64,000 nucleotides of DNA. It comes from Stappia sediminis (GTDB lineage: Bacteria; Pseudomonadota; Alphaproteobacteria; Rhizobiales; Stappiaceae). How positions within the stretch are numbered: the stretch's first letter is position 1; each line of letters starts with the position of its first letter. Where the stretch lies: positions 248,001-312,000 of the forward strand of contig NZ_WUMV01000003.1 of NCBI RefSeq assembly GCF_009826895.1. The letters run 5' to 3'. The notes under the pieces are model-generated. The model did not search any database and was not told the DNA's origin. It saw nothing but the letters and a program-made list of their open reading frames with translations. A program made the position numbers and the translations under genes. This document shows, piece after piece, positions 45,226-55,595 of the stretch.

Positions 45226-46242
45226 CTACCTGTCCGCGAAGATCCGGTTCCAGTCGTCCTTCATGCTGATGACGCGCCAGCCCTTGTCCTTTGCCTCGTC
45301 CATGAGGTCCTGCGGGAAGGCGCCGAAGTGGGTGTCGGGCAAGCCGTTGGCGGGGCCGTAGGCGTATTCGCGGTCGGCGTCGTCGTGAAAGACCAGCATC
45401 ATCAGTCGCGCACCGCCGCCCGCGCCGGTCCATTCCAGCATCTGGCGGTCTCCGGCCGAATTGCCGAATGCGGCGATCGGGCGCTTGCCGATGAACTTGT
45501 TGATGCCGACGGGCTTGCCGGCCTTGTCGTCGATGAAATCGATCTCGGCCTCGCGCATCAGGACGGGCGTGCCGTTTACCTCTTCGTATTTGGTCTTGAT
45601 GGACGAGCCGATCACCTGCTGGGCCGGAATGCCGTAGACCTCAAGCGTCATGGGCCGCATGAATTCCACGCCGCCGCCCGAGACGATGTAGGTCATGAAG
45701 CCGTTGTCCCGCAGGTACTCCAGGAGCTCGACCATCGGCTGGTAGGCAAGTTCAGTATAGGGCCGGTCGAAGCGCGGATGCTTCGCGGTCTTGAACCAGT
45801 CGGTCACGATCTTCTCGAAATCGGCCGTGCTCATGCCCGCGTGGCTGGCCATGACAAGCTCCACCAGCCCCTTCTCGCCGATCTTGCCCAAGGCTTCCAT
45901 GTCGTTGTCGAGCACGGCCTTGAAGGGCTGCGTCGTTTTCCACTCGGGATGGTCCGGCGCGAGCGCCTTTACACGGTCAAGCGCGAACGCAAGCTGGGTA
46001 TAAATCGGGTGCTCGACCCACAGCGTGCCGTCATTGTCGAATGTCGCTATCCGGTCGGCCGGCGCCACGAAATCCGCTCCGCCGTCGGTGGTGACGGCCT
46101 CGACGAATTCAACGATCGCCTGTTTGCTCGCGCCGTCGTTCCAGGACGGCAGCGGATCGTCCTGCGCCAGCGCTGCGGATGCGAAGAAAAAGGCGCCTAT
46201 GACGCCTGCGGAGAGTATCGAAGTGAAACGGGGTATCCGCAT
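45226..46242 (-). CDS. Exported HAD-family phosphatase
   Basis: 338 aa from the ATG at 46242. A signal peptide (ILSAGVIGAFFFASAALAQ) indicates export. HAD motifs are FDNDGTLW (nucleophile Asp and acid/base Asp), motif II VSGGG, and motif IV FGNSAGDRQML. Phosphoserine-phosphatase-like; substrate unknown. It follows the sulfatase gene on the same strand, separated by a strong terminator, so both may serve scavenging of phosphate or sulfate esters. Its 3' end is 9 bases from the convergent SH3 protein. Confidence 0.87.
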   Translation of the reverse strand: MRIPRFTSILSAGVIGAFFFASAALAQDDPLPSWNDGASKQAIVEFVEAVTTDGGADFVAPADRIATFDNDGTLWVEHPIYTQLAFALDRVKALAPDHPEWKTTQPFKAVLDNDMEALGKIGEKGLVELVMASHAGMSTADFEKIVTDWFKTAKHPRFDRPYTELAYQPMVELLEYLRDNGFMTYIVSGGGVEFMRPMTLEVYGIPAQQVIGSSIKTKYEEVNGTPVLMREAEIDFIDDKAGKPVGINKFIGKRPIAAFGNSAGDRQMLEWTGAGGGARLMMLVFHDDADREYAYGPANGLPDTHFGAFPQDLMDEAKDKGWRVISMKDDWNRIFADR

Positions 46243-46269
46243 GTTACCGATCTCCTCAAAAACCGGGCT

Positions 46270-46307
46270 GCAAAAAACAGTTCGCCCCATCGTGAAACGG
46301 GGCGAAC
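46270..46307 (-). terminator. Rho-independent terminator of the sulfatase gene
   Basis: GTTCGCCCC and GGGGCGAAC (46280-46288 and 46299-46307) form a perfect 9-bp stem. On the minus strand it is followed by TGTTTTTTGC, a classic tail, 22 bases after the sulfatase stop. Confidence 0.9.
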
Positions 46308-46329: not shown

Positions 46330-48003
<1,674 letters not shown>

Positions 48004-48318: not shown

Positions 48319-48595
48319 GGCAGCCGTCCGGTTGCGGCGACCGGATCGCCGGCGCTCCGCGCTATGCTTCTTCGATTATCGATTAGGGAGTATAGTGGTC
48401 CTTCCGTAGGGTTTTTGTAGTGTGCGAACATGTACGAACATGTTCCCCAAAGTGTTCTACCGCTTCGATTTGTTGGACGAAGCGAATGATAACAGGCTGA
48501 TATGCATCAATGACGGGATGGATGCAGCCCGGTAGACCCGATGCAGTGCTGAACTGCCTCGTTTTCCCGATTTGATTCAGTAACTTCACGTGTCC

Positions 48596-50425
48596 ATGGT
48601 CGAGGGTATTGCAGTGCAGAGTACTGATACCGCTGCGAGTGGTCAGAGTTCCCGGCCGGACCCGTCAGAGGATGACGTGGAGGAGGAACTTCGGCGCATC
48701 CTTTCGAATCCCGAATTTCAGGCGAGCGCGAAGCGGCGGGCGTTCCTGCGTTTCATTGTCGAAGAGGCGCTGGCGGGCCGGGCGGCCAGGCTCAAGGGTC
48801 ATGCGGTGGCGGTCGCCGTGTTCGGGCGCGACGAGACGTTCGATTCCCAGTCCGATCCGGTCGTGCGTCTCGAGGCGCGGCGGCTGAGGCGCGATCTCGA
48901 CTGCTACTACGTCGAAGCGGGCAGCCATAACCCCGTGCGCATCTCGATCCCGAAGGGCTCATACGTCCCGCGCTTCGAATGGCACGAGCCGGTGCAAGCC
49001 GCGGATACCTCCAGGGGCGGCGAAACCGAGCCCGGCGGTTCGTATGCGCAAAGCGAAGCGCCGGGCGCAATTTCCCATTCGCCGAGCGGTGCCCGGCTCT
49101 CCATGAAAAGCCTGGTTGTCGCGTTTGCGTTGATCGCTGCACTCGGCGCCGCGGTTGCTGCCGGCTGGTATCTCACCGCCGGCAAGGAAAATGTCGTTGC
49201 CGGCAGCTATGCGAACGAGCCGGCGATTGTCGTCCTGCCTTTCGAGGCTCTGACCAGGGATGAAGACAATAACCACCTTGCGGAGGGCATTCGCCAGGAA
49301 CTCATCGGCGATCTGATGCGGTTCGCCGGCTTCCGGGTCTACTCGCCACCGGTCGGCGGCGAAAAGGCGGCAACCGCCGAACCGGTAAAGCTCGCGCGGG
49401 ATCTCGGCGTGGCCTATGTGGTGACCGGCAGCCTGCGCACAGGCCCCGGTGAACTGCATGTCGCAACGCGGATGTTCGACGCCGCCACCGGCCAGGTGCT
49501 GTGGTCCGGGACCTACAATCGCGCATTGACGCCGGAGTCGCTCATTCGCGTGCAGGACGACCTCGCAGGCGAAATCGCAAGCGTTCTCGGCCAGCCCTAT
49601 GGAGTGGTCGCAGGCGACCTGAAACTTCGCGCGGCAACGCCGGCGGTGTCGAGCATGAAGAGTTACATGTGCGTTCGGCGCGCCTACGGTTATCGCCGGG
49701 GCTTTTCCCGCGCGGAGTTCGAGCCGGTTCTCGGCTGCCTAGAGGAGGCCGTGCGCCGCGATCCCGCCTACAGCGATGCCTGGGCCATGCTCGGCTGGCT
49801 CCACCTCGATGCGGGCCGGTTCGAGTTTTTCGGTGCCGACAAGCTTCAGGATGAATATCAAAAGGGCTTTCAGGCTGCATCGAAGGCGCTGGTCCTGGAG
49901 CCTGACAACACTCTGGCGCTGAAGGCGCTTTCGTCGATCAACCACTATATGGGGCATTACGAGGAGGGCGAGCGCCTTGCGCGCCGCGCGGTGGAACTCA
50001 ACCCCCATGATCCCGATACGCTGGCGCAGCTTGGCTGGCGGCTGGCGGTGCGTGGAAATTTCGACGAAGGCATTCCGATCCTCAATCGGGCGATCGAGCG
50101 CACGGTGAACCCGCCGGGTTGGTATTTCCACCTCATCGCGGTCGACCTGCTTCTCAAGGGCGATTTCGAGCGAATGCTTCAGGTGGCTCAACGTTCGGCG
50201 GTGAACGGATCGGCCGTCAGCCAGGTGCTGATCGCCATTGCCGCGACTGAGTTGGGGCAGCGCGATACCGCGAAAGCCGCGCTTGAGGAGTTGCCGGAGT
50301 CCGGCCCGATCGCACGCGACGCCAAGGCTTTTTTCCGCCGTCATGGCTCGACCGACGAAATCGTCGATGCCATCGAGGCGGGGCTGGCGAAAGCCCGTCA
50401 GGCTGCATCGACCCCCGAGGATTGA
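48596..50425 (+). CDS. Membrane TPR regulator with FlgO-like domain
   Basis: 609 aa from the ATG at 48596; a GTG at 48590 is an alternative. Residues ~28-125 form a cytoplasmic helical domain (SNPEFQASAKRRAFLRFIV, SDPVVRLEARRLRRDL) seen in rhizobial TPR and cyclase-like regulators. One membrane segment lies near 172-195, then a FlgO-like alpha/beta domain (IVVLPFEAL, AYVVTGSLR, GQVLWSGTYNR), then TPRs (about 375-520). No catalytic cyclase residues are present. Convergent with the subtilase operon and similar in its C-terminal two-thirds to the cyclase at 53793, hinting at a shared origin. Confidence 0.78.
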   Translation: MVEGIAVQSTDTAASGQSSRPDPSEDDVEEELRRILSNPEFQASAKRRAFLRFIVEEALAGRAARLKGHAVAVAVFGRDETFDSQSDPVVRLEARRLRRDLDCYYVEAGSHNPVRISIPKGSYVPRFEWHEPVQAADTSRGGETEPGGSYAQSEAPGAISHSPSGARLSMKSLVVAFALIAALGAAVAAGWYLTAGKENVVAGSYANEPAIVVLPFEALTRDEDNNHLAEGIRQELIGDLMRFAGFRVYSPPVGGEKAATAEPVKLARDLGVAYVVTGSLRTGPGELHVATRMFDAATGQVLWSGTYNRALTPESLIRVQDDLAGEIASVLGQPYGVVAGDLKLRAATPAVSSMKSYMCVRRAYGYRRGFSRAEFEPVLGCLEEAVRRDPAYSDAWAMLGWLHLDAGRFEFFGADKLQDEYQKGFQAASKALVLEPDNTLALKALSSINHYMGHYEEGERLARRAVELNPHDPDTLAQLGWRLAVRGNFDEGIPILNRAIERTVNPPGWYFHLIAVDLLLKGDFERMLQVAQRSAVNGSAVSQVLIAIAATELGQRDTAKAALEELPESGPIARDAKAFFRRHGSTDEIVDAIEAGLAKARQAASTPED

Positions 50426-50459: not shown

Positions 50460-52508
50460 TCATGCCTTCCGGTTGGGGCCGAAGCGGACGATGCGGTCCA
50501 TCCTCCCGCCGCCGACGCGGGGCAAGGCCGGTTTGGGCGGAGGAACGAAGCCCGGGTCGTCGGCCGCTCCTTTCGCGTTCACGGCCACCCTGTTGCCACT
50601 GAGGCCACCCGCGAGCCTTCCCGCCATCCAGCGTGCGGCCTGTGGCGCGGCAACGCTCGTACCGTTCAGCGCCACCAGCGAACCGTTGCGCGAACCGGCG
50701 CTCAAGATGCCGTGCAACACGCGCGTATCGTCGCTTACCGCTGCCGCATCCGGGCCTGTTCGCGTCGGATGCGAGGCGCCGCAGGCGGTGGTGATCGGGC
50801 CGGCCGCCGAATAGATTGCCAGCTCGCCGCTGGATTCGACGAAGCCTGCCAGCACCGCCGGGCGTTCGCCGCAGGCAAAACCGCTGAGCGTGCCGGCGCG
50901 GCGCACGACACAGGTCGAGCCCGGAGGGTCGATCGGCAACGGGGCGCCAAAGGCATTGAACCGGTCGTAGCAGTCATTGTCGAAATAGGATTGCCGGCCG
51001 AAGCGGGGGAAGCCGGGCAGTGTCTCGTCGCGGCGAACCCAGACCTCCACACTGTCGACAGGGGTAAGGTTCAGGTTCCTGATCCTGATTTTCCAGACAC
51101 CCGAGGGCGCGACGTCTGCCGGGTTGTCGTGAGAAAAGGTTGGTGCGGCGCTAACCGTGATGAGCCCACGGTCTGTCGGCGACGGCTGAAAGGCGTACCA
51201 CAAGCGCCCGACGACCAGGTTCTGATCGGTTTCAAGGACCTGCATGGAACCGGCCGTCGTCGTGACCGGATCGCTTTCAGGCCCGCCCGCCGGTTCCACC
51301 GTGACTTCGACCAGGTTATCCGGGTCCTCTACGCACGGCATCCAGATCTCGACATAGCTCGCCGTGAGATCGTCCGGCGGCAACCGCCAGTGCAGTTCCA
51401 CTTCATCGCCTTCATCGCCGGGGGGTTCCAGCCTGACCCGGGCATGCGAGCGGGCCAGGTTGCCGTTGCCGGCGGGCAGCGCGAGTTGCCTTTCGCGATT
51501 GGGCAGCGGCCTGAACTTCCGGTCCAGCATTTTCTCCACGATGCCGGTACCGTCATGCGGGCCGGCGAAATTGCCGTAGCTGAAGTTGACGACCAGCGGA
51601 ACCCGCTTGCCCGGATCGCTCTGGTAGCGGAACCGCTTCGCCATCTTCTTGATGAACACCGTGGCCAGGGCAAGAGAGGGCAAAAGATCGGCGCCGCTCA
51701 CATCCATCGTCACATCGGTCGGCAACTGTACGCAGATTATGGGGTTCGTATCGTCCACGGTGCCGGGTTCGCTCCCCGCCGCAAGGCCCATGACATGCGT
51801 GCCGTGGGAGACGCGCAGCGCTGCCTGTTTCACGCCCGGCCAGGCGAAATCGATCAGCCCGGCCTGATGGTAAAACGTGTCCTCGTCGAGGAGGCCGGCC
51901 GCGGTGTTGTTTGCCAGCAGCATGTCGATTTCGTCATTGGCCAGCGCCCGTCCCTGGCTGACCGGCACCGTGCCCGCGCTTGCCGAAGGATCGGCATCCA
52001 TGATCCATGCGAACGCCACGCGGGATTTCGTTGGGTCCGTTTTGCGAAACAGTTCATGCGCGAAGGCTATGCCGTTGTCGATGACCGCGGTGACGACCGA
52101 CCCGTCCGGAACCAGAATGTTCGGAAGGGCGGCGGGCCATCTGCCTGCTCCGAAGTCGAGCACGGCGTCCGGGACGATCGTCCCGCACAAGAGCCGCTTA
52201 ACGCCCAGGGGATTGTCCCTGATATTGGCCGCGTTCAGGAACGCGCTCGTCGCATAGACCGTGGGGTACTGGATTTCCTCTCGATCCCGGTCTTCGTCGC
52301 TGTAAAGGTTCGGGATAATCACTGTGCCTTCAAGGCCGGCGTTCCTGGCGTTTTCGAGAAGGTCCTTCAGCGAAAGGTCCTCAAGCTCGAGAATCGCGCT
52401 CCACCATTGCTCCGTCACGCCGCTGCGCGCGACGATCTCAAGGCGGAATGCCATGATCGGGTCGATGACATCCGCGGGTGTGTCCTTGTACCAGTTCAAC
52501 ATTTTCAT
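50460..52508 (-). CDS. S8 subtilisin-like serine protease
   Basis: 682 aa; the second ATG at 52502 sits at a better distance from GGAGGG and may be the true start. The triad is Asp144 (AVIDNGIAF), His235 (SHGTHVMGLAAG) and Ser618 (NGTSVAAPQ). Residues 1-125 form an N-terminal domain without a signal peptide, and a long insert (about 360-560) with beta-rich sequence splits the catalytic core before the Ser. Lack of a signal suggests a cytoplasmic or unconventionally exported protease. Last gene of a three-gene operon, 54 bases after the haloperoxidase-like gene. Confidence 0.88.
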   Translation of the reverse strand: MKMLNWYKDTPADVIDPIMAFRLEIVARSGVTEQWWSAILELEDLSLKDLLENARNAGLEGTVIIPNLYSDEDRDREEIQYPTVYATSAFLNAANIRDNPLGVKRLLCGTIVPDAVLDFGAGRWPAALPNILVPDGSVVTAVIDNGIAFAHELFRKTDPTKSRVAFAWIMDADPSASAGTVPVSQGRALANDEIDMLLANNTAAGLLDEDTFYHQAGLIDFAWPGVKQAALRVSHGTHVMGLAAGSEPGTVDDTNPIICVQLPTDVTMDVSGADLLPSLALATVFIKKMAKRFRYQSDPGKRVPLVVNFSYGNFAGPHDGTGIVEKMLDRKFRPLPNRERQLALPAGNGNLARSHARVRLEPPGDEGDEVELHWRLPPDDLTASYVEIWMPCVEDPDNLVEVTVEPAGGPESDPVTTTAGSMQVLETDQNLVVGRLWYAFQPSPTDRGLITVSAAPTFSHDNPADVAPSGVWKIRIRNLNLTPVDSVEVWVRRDETLPGFPRFGRQSYFDNDCYDRFNAFGAPLPIDPPGSTCVVRRAGTLSGFACGERPAVLAGFVESSGELAIYSAAGPITTACGASHPTRTGPDAAAVSDDTRVLHGILSAGSRNGSLVALNGTSVAAPQAARWMAGRLAGGLSGNRVAVNAKGAADDPGFVPPPKPALPRVGGGRMDRIVRFGPNRKA

Positions 52509-52562
52509 ACCCTCCGGTTCGCGCGCTTCTGCCTGCGCGTTCCGTACCTGTTTCCAAGCCGG

Positions 52563-53756
52563 CTAAATATCGAGCCACTCGCTCTTGGCTTGATTCCAAA
52601 GCCACGCGAGCGAGGCGGACTGGAGGGCATTCGCATCGAGGGCCGTGACGGTTTGCGTCGCCCATGGCGCCTGCGGCGTCTGGGATTGCGTCGCCACGTC
52701 GTAAAGCAGCGTCCAGTTGAAGTCGTCGTTGGAGGGGTATTGCGCGCCGTCGAAGGTCCATCCGTTCAACTGGTTCGCGCCTGTGCATCGGCCCACGAAA
52801 TAGGCGCCAAGCGTCAGGCCGAGGATCGCGCCCGCCACGCTGTCGACCGGAAAATGCACGCCCGCGACCGTTCGGTTGATGGCGATGCGCGCTGCCTGCC
52901 GCATCATCATCTCGCCCCAGACATCATCGCTGTAGGGCACGACCCCGGTATCGCGCAGCAGCAGCCAGAGAACGCGGGCGAGAGTGAAGGATTCCGTCGA
53001 ATGTCCGCTCGGAAGGGAGCCGTGCGTCGGCGTCAGGATCATCGGCTGGATCTGCGGTGAAAACTCCATCGGCCGCTTGCACGCCAGCGCGTATTTCATC
53101 CTCATCTCCACCAGATTGGCGAGACCGTGGGCCACCGACAGAAGCTCGATCGTGAACGGCGTGCGCGACGGGTTCATATAGGCGATGGAGCGCAGGAACT
53201 CGGTCGGCGTGCCGAGCTGGGCGATGACTTCCGCCGCCCGGTCTTGCCTGAGGTCGGCATAGTTCGCCACCAGATCGAGCTGATTCCTGAAGATGGCGAC
53301 CGTCGGACGGACCATCGTCGCAAGCGGCTTGTAATCCGTGTCAGGCGGGACCACGCCATTTGCGCCGGATGTCAGTTCCAGATGCCAGACATGGCCCGCT
53401 CTCGGGTTGTTTCCTGCGGGATCGAAGGTAAACCCCAGTCTGGATGCCAGTTCGAAGCCGAAAATGCTGCCCCGGACCGCTGGCGACAGCCGCGCCAGAT
53501 AGGCCGCTGTTTCAAGGTTGTTTTCCTGGATGGCGGCCGTCACCGGCTGCCATGTCCCGGCGATGCCGTCGCGATTGGCGATCAGGGCATTGACGAGGAG
53601 CGGCTGATCGGACGGCGATATGCCGCCAAACCCGCCGAAGCCCCCAAAACCACCGAAACCACCGAAACCACCGAAGCCGCCGAAGCCGCCGAAGCCGCCG
53701 AAACCACCGAAGCCCCCAAATCCGCCTTGCTGAAGCGTCGTCTCTGGAAATGTCAT
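52563..53756 (-). CDS. Vanadium-dependent haloperoxidase/PAP2 superfamily protein with GGF-repeat N-terminus
   Basis: 397 aa. After ten residues come 11 Gly-Gly-Phe units (residues 11-43). The catalytic signature is complete: Lys221-x6-Arg228-Pro, Pro-Ser250-Gly-His252, and Arg295-x5-His301-x3-Asp305, matching the vanadate/phosphate pocket of vanadium chloroperoxidases and PAP2 acid phosphatases. The soluble, membrane-segment-poor chain favours the haloperoxidase branch, but a phosphatase is not excluded. No signal peptide. Middle gene of the cyclase-haloperoxidase-subtilase operon, starting 36 bases after the cyclase stop. Confidence 0.85.
   Translation of the reverse strand: MTFPETTLQQGGFGGFGGFGGFGGFGGFGGFGGFGGFGGFGGFGGISPSDQPLLVNALIANRDGIAGTWQPVTAAIQENNLETAAYLARLSPAVRGSIFGFELASRLGFTFDPAGNNPRAGHVWHLELTSGANGVVPPDTDYKPLATMVRPTVAIFRNQLDLVANYADLRQDRAAEVIAQLGTPTEFLRSIAYMNPSRTPFTIELLSVAHGLANLVEMRMKYALACKRPMEFSPQIQPMILTPTHGSLPSGHSTESFTLARVLWLLLRDTGVVPYSDDVWGEMMMRQAARIAINRTVAGVHFPVDSVAGAILGLTLGAYFVGRCTGANQLNGWTFDGAQYPSNDDFNWTLLYDVATQSQTPQAPWATQTVTALDANALQSASLAWLWNQAKSEWLDI
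53628..53726 (-). repeat. 11 x 9-bp tandem repeat encoding Gly-Gly-Phe
   Basis: Eleven in-frame 9-base units of GG.GG.TT(C/T) sequence encode (GGF)11 and are followed by GGI. Synonymous changes (GGCGGC, GGTGGT and GGGGGC forms) occur between units, so it is not a perfect microsatellite. Confidence 0.95.
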
Positions 53757-53792
53757 GGCACAATCCCTCCGGTTAAAAATTTCGGTCAGACT

Positions 53793-55595
53793 CTAATCAG
53801 GCGGCAGCCCCGCTTGTCGCAATGTCTCGGCGAATTCACGCCCGACACTGTAGGGCGCGCTCGGCGAATTCTGGAGCCAGCGCGCGACGGTCAGGTCCGG
53901 TTGCCGTCCGAGCAGCTCCTCGATCGTTCGCCTCGCCTTCCCCCTTTTGCCAAGCCGCATTTCCGCGACTGCCTTGGCCCTGAGCGTCGATGTATGCGCG
54001 CGGTTCAATCTCAGCGAACGATCGGCAAGTTCCAGCGCGCGCTCGTAATTCTCTCCGGCAATGCAGGCCGAGGCGGCGAGCGACAGATAGAAATACCGGT
54101 ACGGGTCGATCGGCGAGAGATGCAGCGCAAGCTCCGTATCGTGCATCGCGGCATCGCCGATCCCCTTGAAGGCGTAAAGCGTGCCGCGCAGCAGCCTGCC
54201 CATCGCGTAATTCGGGTTGTATTCAAGCGCCATGTCGTAGCGCTGCTCGGCTTCGTCCAGCTGATGCGCCAGGTTTGTCAGCGCGAACCCTTCGGCGACC
54301 AGCGCGGTGACGTTGGTCGGGTCCTGATCCAGAGCGGTTCTGGTGCACTGAAGCGCAAGGGCGGTCTCGCGGGCGGGGGAATCCGTCCAGCCCTGCTGTA
54401 CGGCAAGCACATGCCACTTGGCCTTCCAGGCAAGTGCGGTGGCCGGCGGGCTCGAAGAACGGGTGATCAATTCGTCCAGCAATTCCGCGGCATAGTCGAA
54501 ATGGCGCGGCGAAAGCCTGTAGATGAGGCCGATGGCGCTCATCAGCAGCGAATAGGCGTCGAGCGTCTGCTTCCGGCTTGAGAGCGCCATCTGGATTTCC
54601 GTCCGCAGGATCGCCGACTGGCAGTCCTTGGCAATCCGGTGGATGGCCGACGGGTCCTGAAGAATGGCCGGCACGTCTTCACTGACGCGCTCGGACCAGA
54701 TTACGCGTCCGCTTTTGACGTCCGCGAGCTCGATGTCGAGGCTGACGTGCCTTTCATCGCCGCTGTAGGTTCCAGATAGGATGAAATCAGCCTTCAGGGT
54801 ATCCGCGATCTTCGCCAGCGAGCTTCCCCGCATGCGAAAACCGGTCGTCGAAAGGCGGGAAATCACATTGATCTCCGAGGAGCGCGACAAGGCGACGATC
54901 AGTTCCTCGGCAAGCACCTCGCCAAGCGTGAAGTGATCTTTTGATCTGCTGCGCGGGGTGAACGGTATGACCGCGATCGTCGGCAGCAGGTCCTCGTACC
55001 GCAGCAGGGGAACGACTTTCGGGTGGGTGCCGAAAGGATGGACCCGGAATGCGCGCACCGGCTCGGCTATGTTTTTCAGATGGCACTCGCCGATATCCTC
55101 GAACTCCCCGTCAAGCTCGTTCGAAAGGGCGTCGCGCACCTCTGCCGTCGCCACGATCTCGCCGGGACGGGCCAGTGTCATCAACCGGGCGGCAATGTTT
55201 ACGTGATAGCCGTAGAGGTCGTGATCGTGTGTCGTGATCACGTCGCCCGTGTCGATCCCGATGCGCAATTGCATTGCGCGTTCGGGCGGAAGCCCGGCAT
55301 TGACCTTCGCGAGTTCGCGGGGCATCGCGATCGAAAAGCGGACCGCGTCCGCGACGTCCTCGAATTCCACGAAAACCCCGTCGCCAAGCGTCTTGACCAT
55401 GCGGCCGTCATGGCTTGGCAGCAGGCTGTCCTTCAGAAAGTCGACGAACGCCAGCCAGGCGCGAACGGTATCTTCTTCGCCGGATTTGAACAGCCGGGCC
55501 GACCCGACGACATCGGCAAAAAGCATAGCCTTGGGCCGGCTCTCCAGATTGTCGAAGAGCCCGGGATCCTTCCCGTTTGCAGGGGGCATGTGCAT
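53793..55595 (-). CDS. Class III adenylate cyclase with FlgO-like and TPR domains
   Basis: 600 aa; an ATG at 55589 is also possible. Residues ~20-190 are the cyclase domain with metal-binding Asp28 and Asp72, ATP-type Lys68 and Asp126, and Asn133/Arg137 (HVNIAARL), so activity is expected. Residues ~205-320 form a FlgO-like domain (TIAVIPFTP, ADFILSGTY, GRVIWSERV). Residues ~350-590 are TPRs. No membrane segments. First gene of the operon with the haloperoxidase-like enzyme and subtilase, suggesting it regulates or senses their activity. Confidence 0.9.
   Translation of the reverse strand: MHMPPANGKDPGLFDNLESRPKAMLFADVVGSARLFKSGEEDTVRAWLAFVDFLKDSLLPSHDGRMVKTLGDGVFVEFEDVADAVRFSIAMPRELAKVNAGLPPERAMQLRIGIDTGDVITTHDHDLYGYHVNIAARLMTLARPGEIVATAEVRDALSNELDGEFEDIGECHLKNIAEPVRAFRVHPFGTHPKVVPLLRYEDLLPTIAVIPFTPRSRSKDHFTLGEVLAEELIVALSRSSEINVISRLSTTGFRMRGSSLAKIADTLKADFILSGTYSGDERHVSLDIELADVKSGRVIWSERVSEDVPAILQDPSAIHRIAKDCQSAILRTEIQMALSSRKQTLDAYSLLMSAIGLIYRLSPRHFDYAAELLDELITRSSSPPATALAWKAKWHVLAVQQGWTDSPARETALALQCTRTALDQDPTNVTALVAEGFALTNLAHQLDEAEQRYDMALEYNPNYAMGRLLRGTLYAFKGIGDAAMHDTELALHLSPIDPYRYFYLSLAASACIAGENYERALELADRSLRLNRAHTSTLRAKAVAEMRLGKRGKARRTIEELLGRQPDLTVARWLQNSPSAPYSVGREFAETLRQAGLPPD

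Follow-up and report, generated by a model that had tools for sequence, protein, structure and literature searches.

Identical short peptide units arranged in tandem, with a subtilase nearby or an enzyme fused to them, are known from yeast alpha-factor/Kex2, ustiloxin and borosin, and OGT and other peptide-binding tetratricopeptide repeat (TPR) proteins carry their ligand groove on the concave faces of the A helices. CspB, one of the Csp germination subtilases, activates a zymogen. In RRNPP pairs (Rap, Rgg, NprR, PlcR, PrgX and AimR) a TPR protein is encoded beside its peptide partner, and the criteria laid out in PMC10075063 are a propeptide of 10-100 aa, Sec secretion, a receptor of 250-500 aa, the presence of TPRs and the adjacency of both genes. 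The stretch analysed here, 64,000 nucleotides of the Stappia sediminis contig NZ_WUMV01000003.1 (hereafter the window), contains a putative operon of three genes, designated CYC, VHP and SUB, which encode a protein with class III cyclase, FlgO-like and TPR parts, a PAP2 enzyme and a Csp-like subtilase, respectively. Comparison of this locus with its relatives suggests that the operon joins a regulator having a peptide-binding TPR domain, an enzyme having a multivalent peptide tail and a protease, a reading to which a probability of about 0.6 is given.

The tail is located at the N-terminus of VHP, whose window version starts as MTFPETTLQQ(GGF)11. The first-pass annotation, in which all three proteins were described, overlooked this GGF array and also lacked its match to the TPR groove of CYC. 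Scanning of species genomes with VHP yielded at least 559 relatives, and the counts given hereafter for named loci refer to the best 80 of them. Within these 80 loci, 76 of the 81 VHP open reading frames (ORFs) display a perfect tandem array near their start (at least four copies), in all cases of period 3, the other five being two ORFs cut at a contig end, two with degenerate arrays and the second VHP copy of L112, in which a GS dipeptide run lies in frame upstream of the picked start. L112 and L264, probably one record, carry two cassettes side by side on one contig, with the words SAY and GS. Array units among the 81 ORFs include GGF, GAF, GSL, GGV, GGI, GGL, GGA, NAY, SAY, TGW, EGL, RAQ and SGD, and over all sets 84 distinct tripeptide units are found (rotations collapsed), plus units of 2, 4 and 5 residues; this tally covers 184 arrays and includes near-duplicate loci, which leaves the number of distinct units unaffected. 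Perfect period-3 arrays are also present in 75 of 100 further loci, and 21 of the remaining 25 show another period (GGSH, GGAH, SGGE, GGGH, QG, GS, GGGGA), L267 being mixed, L210 and L287 degenerate, and L282 having none that could be seen.

The array unit is uniform inside a gene and different between genes. Along a tree of 98 VHP cores, which carry 36 different units, it has changed no fewer than 51 times, and close relatives already differ in it, as observed for GGF, GGL, SGF and SGL in L077, L075, L083 and L089, and for GGV and GGI in L047 and L048. L079 and L080, with one GGV amid GGI units, possibly display intermediates of such a change. In the AlphaFold model of VHP (mean pLDDT 86), residues 1-50 are disordered, with pLDDT <50, and a confident enzyme follows. 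The window's genome has 38 places matching the class III cyclase domain, and no array of at least four copies was found in 20 stretches around its cyclase genes, which hold 14 CYC-like paralogs; on these grounds the idea that arrays generally accompany such regulators was rejected. No array was detected either at a protein start outside VHP genes in 33 locus stretches, where the non-VHP runs were an internal GH run and nine D inside SUB, both in L051, and an X run from N bases in L041. The GH run, of 13 copies, lies in a 728-aa protein near the VHP cassette (L051:4204-6390, minus strand) whose start appears RTX-like by eye.

The cassette itself is conserved. CYC, VHP and SUB are adjacent and co-directional in 77 of the 80 named loci, the exceptions being L094 and L140, cut by the contig end, and L143, in which CYC is divergent. 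Rarity of such neighbours in other genomes had been set beforehand as the refuting condition of the first-pass annotation, and this count brings no refutation; a chance neighbourhood of the three genes was rejected in view of the same conservation. A VHP search of 151 related genomes gave a match in 72, many of them short and fitting ordinary PAP2 enzymes. In the 29 loci with long or split long matches (L032-L060), VHP has a same-strand CYC-like neighbour in 25 and SUB in all 29, and the four without a co-directional CYC have a divergent gene of 535-583 aa directly upstream, with weak Pfam TPR or Trans_reg_C matches in three. At the level of sequence, the three genes travel together, and the tail consists of tandem copies of one unit, which is gene-specific.

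Concerning taxonomic spread, the best 80 of the at least 559 relatives belong, going by their record titles, mostly to Rhodobacterales, Microvirga, Bradyrhizobium and other Alphaproteobacteria, and also to Burkholderiales and one member of Chromatiales; single metagenome bins labelled Anaerolineae and Planctomycetaceae carry the cassette as well, with mis-binning being possible. In evenly drawn genomes, VHP matches with E <=1e-40 occur in 71 of 295 from one family of the same class, at loci like the named Rhodobacteraceae ones, and in 20 of 347 from the window's order. Six short loci (L151-L156) have an array and a TPR partner with no SUB match within reach (flanks of ~1.5 kb). These six and L062 encode short VHP versions of ~270-360 aa, with arrays such as TGN, AGN, DAR and DGM, a CYC partner and no SUB match nearby, and might represent a simpler form of the system. 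Neither array nor CYC or SUB match was found at 14 ordinary PAP2 loci (L157-L170; flanks of ~1.5 kb) or in the short flanks of the ordinary PAP2 genes L026-L031. Distant PAP2 genes beside TPR regulators (L061, L063, L185 and L186) carry dipeptide runs (MT, NK), which in L063, L185 and L186 lie away from the very start of the protein. A defence system was rejected as an explanation of the cassette, with no PADLOC support and a weak Pycsar-cyclase match confined to the cyclase domain (E 1.2e-4), there being none for VHP or SUB.

The link between tail and regulator comes from co-variation. Units were written with the bulkiest residue last, as X1-X2-X3, and 1184 alignment columns of CYC, VHP and SUB were tested against a null of columns simulated along a concatenated tree built for 115 loci. 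These loci are what remained of 131 once L150, L171, four loci lacking an adjacent CYC and 10 lacking a perfect period-3 array (four copies or more) had been removed; duplicates (L036, L037, L038 and L152), the distant L061-L063, and L049 and L052, in which VHP was not picked, had been left out before. In a first scan without the tree CYC F588 was prominent, and with the tree-based null X1 is led by CYC F437. For X1 = Gly versus others, F437 reaches z 11.3, with 0 of 21,183 matched simulated columns as strong, the next columns being CYC V399 (z 5.3; 0 of 16,986 simulated) and CYC N441 (z 4.6); VHP E217, the best VHP column, has z 5.2, VHP V94 z 4.75 (0 of 17,503 simulated), and the best SUB column z 4.3. 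Phe437 is present in 66 of 75 loci with X1 = Gly and in 1 of 40 with another X1, so that 66 of the 67 Phe437 proteins have Gly first, and X1 = Asn is accompanied by Gln437 in 7 of 9. Out of 14 independent pairs, the 9 informative ones all associate Phe437 with Gly (p 0.004). Regarding the other unit positions, the leading X2 columns are CYC S509 and L468, followed closely by a column each of SUB and VHP, and for X3 identity CYC F588 takes the top rank among the 1184 columns and V584 the second, Trp588 accompanying Ala units (18/18) and Asn584 being found, within the 115-locus set, only with Tyr units (13/16).

These residues fall on a particular face of the TPR domain, whose nearest solved relative by sequence is human OGT. 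With the register set by positions 8, 20 and 32, F437 is placed at position 9, N441 at 13, V399 and L468 at 5, A475 at 12 and S509 at 9, and helix A positions 2, 5, 9, 12 and 13 are those that face the ligand in TPR-peptide complexes. Concave helix-A positions co-vary more than other TPR positions (mean best z 1.94 vs 0.56, p 1.5e-4) and hold 7 of the 13 sites with z >=2.5, versus 23 of 156 positions overall. The 14 own-genome CYC paralogs located beside no array have no common residue at the co-varying sites, as judged from a rough alignment. As far as the alignments tell, X1 and the TPR residue F437 change together and other residues of the groove tend to do so, and it is quite probable that the CYC TPR groove binds the tail of its own VHP.

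A hold-out set was assembled from 100 loci of evenly drawn genomes (one family of the same class and the window's order), some of which repeat earlier loci or each other, and came to 56 once 25 lacking a perfect period-3 array, 12 redundant ones (>=95% identity) and 7 with an unalignable CYC residue 437 had been set aside. Of the 24 hold-out loci with X1 = Gly, 12 have Phe437, as against 0 of the 32 with another X1 (p 4.8e-6), the rule that Phe437 means Gly first being true in 12 of 12 cases. In the 20 hold-out loci with an aligned CYC end, a subset picked afterwards, Phe437 is found in 12 of 14 Gly-first loci versus 0 of 6 (p 7e-4).

Several observations weigh against the groove being the receptor of the tail: (i) 12 of the 24 hold-out loci with X1 = Gly are without F437, the CYC end being unaligned in 10 of these 12, (ii) the Tyr-Asn584 link fails in the hold-out, with N584 in 0 of 3 Tyr units and together with 4 other units, and three GGV/GGI sister pairs keep W588, two others switching V588 to A588, (iii) simulation under one homogeneous model inflates the z values, 0 of 21,183 amounts to p <4.7e-5, about level with the Bonferroni limit (4.2e-5 with 1184 columns), and CYC V399 and VHP V94 are two further columns without a simulated match, VHP E217 having its z of 5.2, (iv) no X2 or X3 column passes Bonferroni correction for the 1184 columns, CYC F588 and V584 included, and in two-state tests for X2 and X3 the columns of SUB and VHP reach roughly the strength of those of CYC, and (v) the size rule for unit rotation is doubtful for polar units, and the TPR register and concave set were fixed after the sites had been seen. 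Since the two-state tests fail to separate CYC from SUB and VHP, the links of X2 and X3 to CYC residues are suggestive only. Given the simplicity of the null model, how CYC columns compare with those of VHP and SUB carries more weight than any single z value. As VHP V94 and E217 follow X1, the tail may also touch its own enzyme domain.

Regarding the proteins themselves, the window CYC matches Pfam Guanylate_cyc (E 9.9e-15), FlgO (2e-5) and TPR, and has all the class III cyclase residues, namely D28 and D72, which we take to be the metal Asp pair, K68 and D126, presumably the base-binding Lys/Asp, and N133 and R137, presumably the Asn/Arg of this class, in agreement with the domains and residues ascribed to it by the first-pass annotation. 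Among 28 partners, Pfam finds the cyclase domain in 20, Trans_reg_C in 7 and TPR_2 in 26, and the cyclase domain is found in 0 of 9 further partners, chosen as winged-helix-like or divergent, in which Pfam may miss worn-down cyclase domains. Judging from these matches, DNA-binding domains often take the place of the cyclase. CYC ORFs, of 600 aa in the window, span 491-851 aa among 79, one being at or below 500. The operon module proposed earlier is supported as a conserved, co-oriented regulator-enzyme-protease module and is not supported as a cAMP module as such (cyclase in 20/28 and 0/9). The maturation or degradation of VHP by SUB, proposed along with it, may still occur.

VHP matches Pfam PAP2 (E 6.6e-13), and the full vanadate/phosphate pocket previously recognised in it (K-x6-RP, PSGH, R-x5-H-x3-D) is borne out, with K221, R228, H252, R295, H301 and D305 identical in 115 of 115 loci; the motifs vary in the Gly of PSGH (Ala in 15 of 115), in its Ser (different in 2) and in the Pro of RP (Ala in 6). 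Foldseek places acid phosphatases first and the bacterial iodoperoxidase 4cit at rank 28, so the model-based fold comparison does not support the haloperoxidase-like identity proposed earlier over that of an acid phosphatase. No signal-like start was seen by eye in the VHP N termini inspected. SUB matches Pfam Peptidase_S8 with E 3e-4 and 20.6 bits, slightly under the 21.8-bit cut-off, and its Asp-His-Ser triad is intact, as had been annotated: D144 in 105 of 106 aligned loci, H235 in 106 of 106 and S618 in 91 of 91. In its AlphaFold model (mean pLDDT 91.8) the best solved folds are CspB, CspA and CspC, ranks 1-11 all being Csp (4i0w, TM 0.76 by target and 0.53 by query length); NCBIfam CspBA matches with E 1.4e-6, far below the family cut-off, and no SUB signal peptide was seen by eye. 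The array as a substrate code of SUB was rejected, given that SUB columns do not lead X1 (best z 4.3), and is also disfavoured by the arrays of the six short loci having no SUB match in reach; SUB may cut elsewhere than in the array.

Taken together, these features suggest that the VHP tail would be a docking ligand of the adjoining TPR regulator CYC. Every unit being alike, the tail would offer many equal sites, at which two or more regulators could assemble or a single one could be bound firmly whatever the register. Dimers are the working form of class III cyclases as well as of winged-helix regulators, so gathering on the tail would be a plausible switch of the CYC output domain, with a chance somewhat below even. 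By cleaving the disordered tail or the linker, the Csp-like SUB might terminate the complex or set it free; that SUB acts on the VHP tail at all has a chance slightly short of even. A private unit would prevent cross-talk between paralogous cassettes in one cell. Tentatively, the cassette can be viewed as a new regulatory module with a private language, in which a homogeneous, hypervariable array would serve its own TPR regulator as ligand, the groove would track the array residue by residue as a partly readable code, a dedicated Csp-like protease would cut the link, and each cassette would have its own word. To our knowledge no system has been described in which a uniform, hypervariable array tail is paired with a matching receptor, and word searches of open PubMed Central papers turned up no description of one.

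Other explanations of the array were weighed against docking on CYC. The array might be an RRNPP-like multicopy precursor of a short peptide signal, the protease cutting out identical peptides and the TPR regulator being their receptor. A TPR protein adjoining the peptide source, the fast diversification of the unit and the co-encoded subtilase agree with this, as does the binding of short peptides by the TPRs of RRNPP receptors described in PMC10075063. It is made unlikely, however, by the fusion of the array to an enzyme with an invariant active site, the absence of a signal peptide by eye, the arrays of the six short loci without a SUB match within reach, SUB columns that do not lead X1, and the RRNPP features themselves, two of five being absent and a third, secretion, without support. 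Alternatively, the tail could be a self-assembly element (polyglycine-II-like bundle, condensate or amyloid), its co-variation with the TPRs arising indirectly or through common ancestry. Self-pairing would fit repeats that are uniform, made of small residues and drifting in their unit, and VHP V94 and E217 also follow X1; nevertheless, charged or polar units such as RAQ, EGH, DAR and SGR look unlike one assembly type, and the F437 link, beating all matched simulated columns and recurring in 9 of 9 informative pairs, leaves this option quite unlikely.

The idea put forward at first, of a cAMP module controlling an intracellular halogenating or phosphatase enzyme that is matured or degraded by its own protease, the tail having no role, takes its strength from cyclase residues, vanadate/phosphate pocket and protease triad being all intact. 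It appears very improbable, as scanning detected no cyclase domain in 8 of 28 partners or in any of the 9 further ones, and the array and its co-variation are left unexplained. Finally, since slippage can expand 9-base tandem DNA repeats, the arrays could be conceived as its functionless products. Synonymous codon variety inside 60 arrays has a mean of 0.224 versus 0.232 expected from codon usage, 36 arrays lying at or above expectation and 24 below, with L071 and L083 clearly below, and in the close pair L082/L085 much of the synonymous codon order is common, copy by copy. On average, codons vary as codon usage predicts, and thus array uniformity seems to be kept by selection at the protein level while the word drifts. 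Functionless slippage was rejected on this codon variety, and the recurrence of array position and presence across classes, as told by record titles, also leaves it a practically negligible chance.

In the window, the three genes are arranged head to tail on the minus strand in the order CYC-VHP-SUB, with gaps of 36 and 54 bases, the ORFs agreeing with the arrangement first annotated. A consensus scan found no sigma-70-like promoter, and four terminator-like sites with none in either junction.

Table 1. Coordinates of the operon and its sequence features in the window.
Feature	Position	Strand	Description	Basis
CYC	53793..55595	-	600 aa; class III cyclase domain aa 23-175, FlgO-like part 206-301, TPR domain ~395-568, C-terminal cap helix	ORF, Pfam
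VHP	52563..53756	-	397 aa; PAP2 / vanadate-phosphate-pocket enzyme, N-terminal repeat tail	ORF, Pfam PAP2, AlphaFold
SUB	50460..52508	-	682 aa; Csp-like subtilase with D144, H235, S618	ORF, AlphaFold, Foldseek
Putative TPR ligand domain of CYC, aa 395-568	53892..54413	-	V399, F437, N441, L468, A475, S509, A540 co-vary with array unit	
CYC F437 codon	54285..54287	-	residue tied most strongly to unit position 1	
CYC V584-F588	53832..53846	-	C-terminal residues tied to unit position 3; less secure than F437	
(GGF)x11 tandem array, VHP residues 11-43	53628..53726	-		codon listing; Tandem Repeats Finder gives 53622-53726
PAP2 domain of VHP	52797..53135	-	K221, R228, PSGH 249-252, R295, H301, D305	
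VHP V94 codon	53475-53477		follows unit position 1	
VHP E217 codon	53106-53108		follows unit position 1	

The gene to the left of the cassette is convergent and that to its right divergent. At 48590-50425 (+), convergent with SUB and 34 bases off its end, lies the gene of another TPR protein, which matches FlgO weakly and has a different N-terminal domain; a relative of this protein sits ~4 Mb from the cassette in the cassette-bearing genome G065. Also to the left lie an arylsulfatase-like protein (46330-48003, minus strand) and a HAD-like protein (45226-46290, minus strand), both judged by eye. In an empty-site comparison for mobility, the flanking genes show only 45-58% identity to the nearest genomes searched.

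Perfectly repetitive regions with an ever-changing word are hard to explain, and for these arrays the likely reader is encoded next door. If this is true, the cassettes would provide dozens of natural peptide-receptor pairs whose code can already be read in part. They would also represent a novel means of controlling cyclases and transcription factors, chiefly in Alphaproteobacteria, and offer an entry point to a large, still unassigned family of PAP2 enzymes.

In comparison with known systems, the cassette shares with RRNPP pairs a receptor with TPRs (Pfam TPR_2 in 26 of 28 CYC partners) and adjacent receptor and peptide genes (77 of 80 named loci). On the contrary, its peptide forms the uniform tandem tail of an enzyme of ~400 residues instead of being a small propeptide of 10-100 aa, CYC, with ~600 residues and a cyclase or winged-helix output, is above the receptor size of 250-500 aa, and the hosts are mostly Pseudomonadota, not Firmicutes. 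SUB has the fold of the Csp germination subtilases (CspB 4i0w, CspA and CspC), differing from them in its hosts and by an identity of just 13-18%. VHP shares a fold core of ~180 columns and the complete phosphate/vanadate pocket with the PAP2 acid phosphatase 7f17 and the vanadium haloperoxidases 4cit and 1qi9, from which it differs by an extra N-terminal region and the array tail, TM by query length being only 0.36. Unlike in alpha-factor/Kex2, ustiloxin and borosin, the VHP units have no spacers, SUB does not lead the tracking of the unit, and arrays without a nearby SUB exist, and, unlike in OGT-type TPRs, the groove of CYC varies in step with a co-encoded repeat unit.

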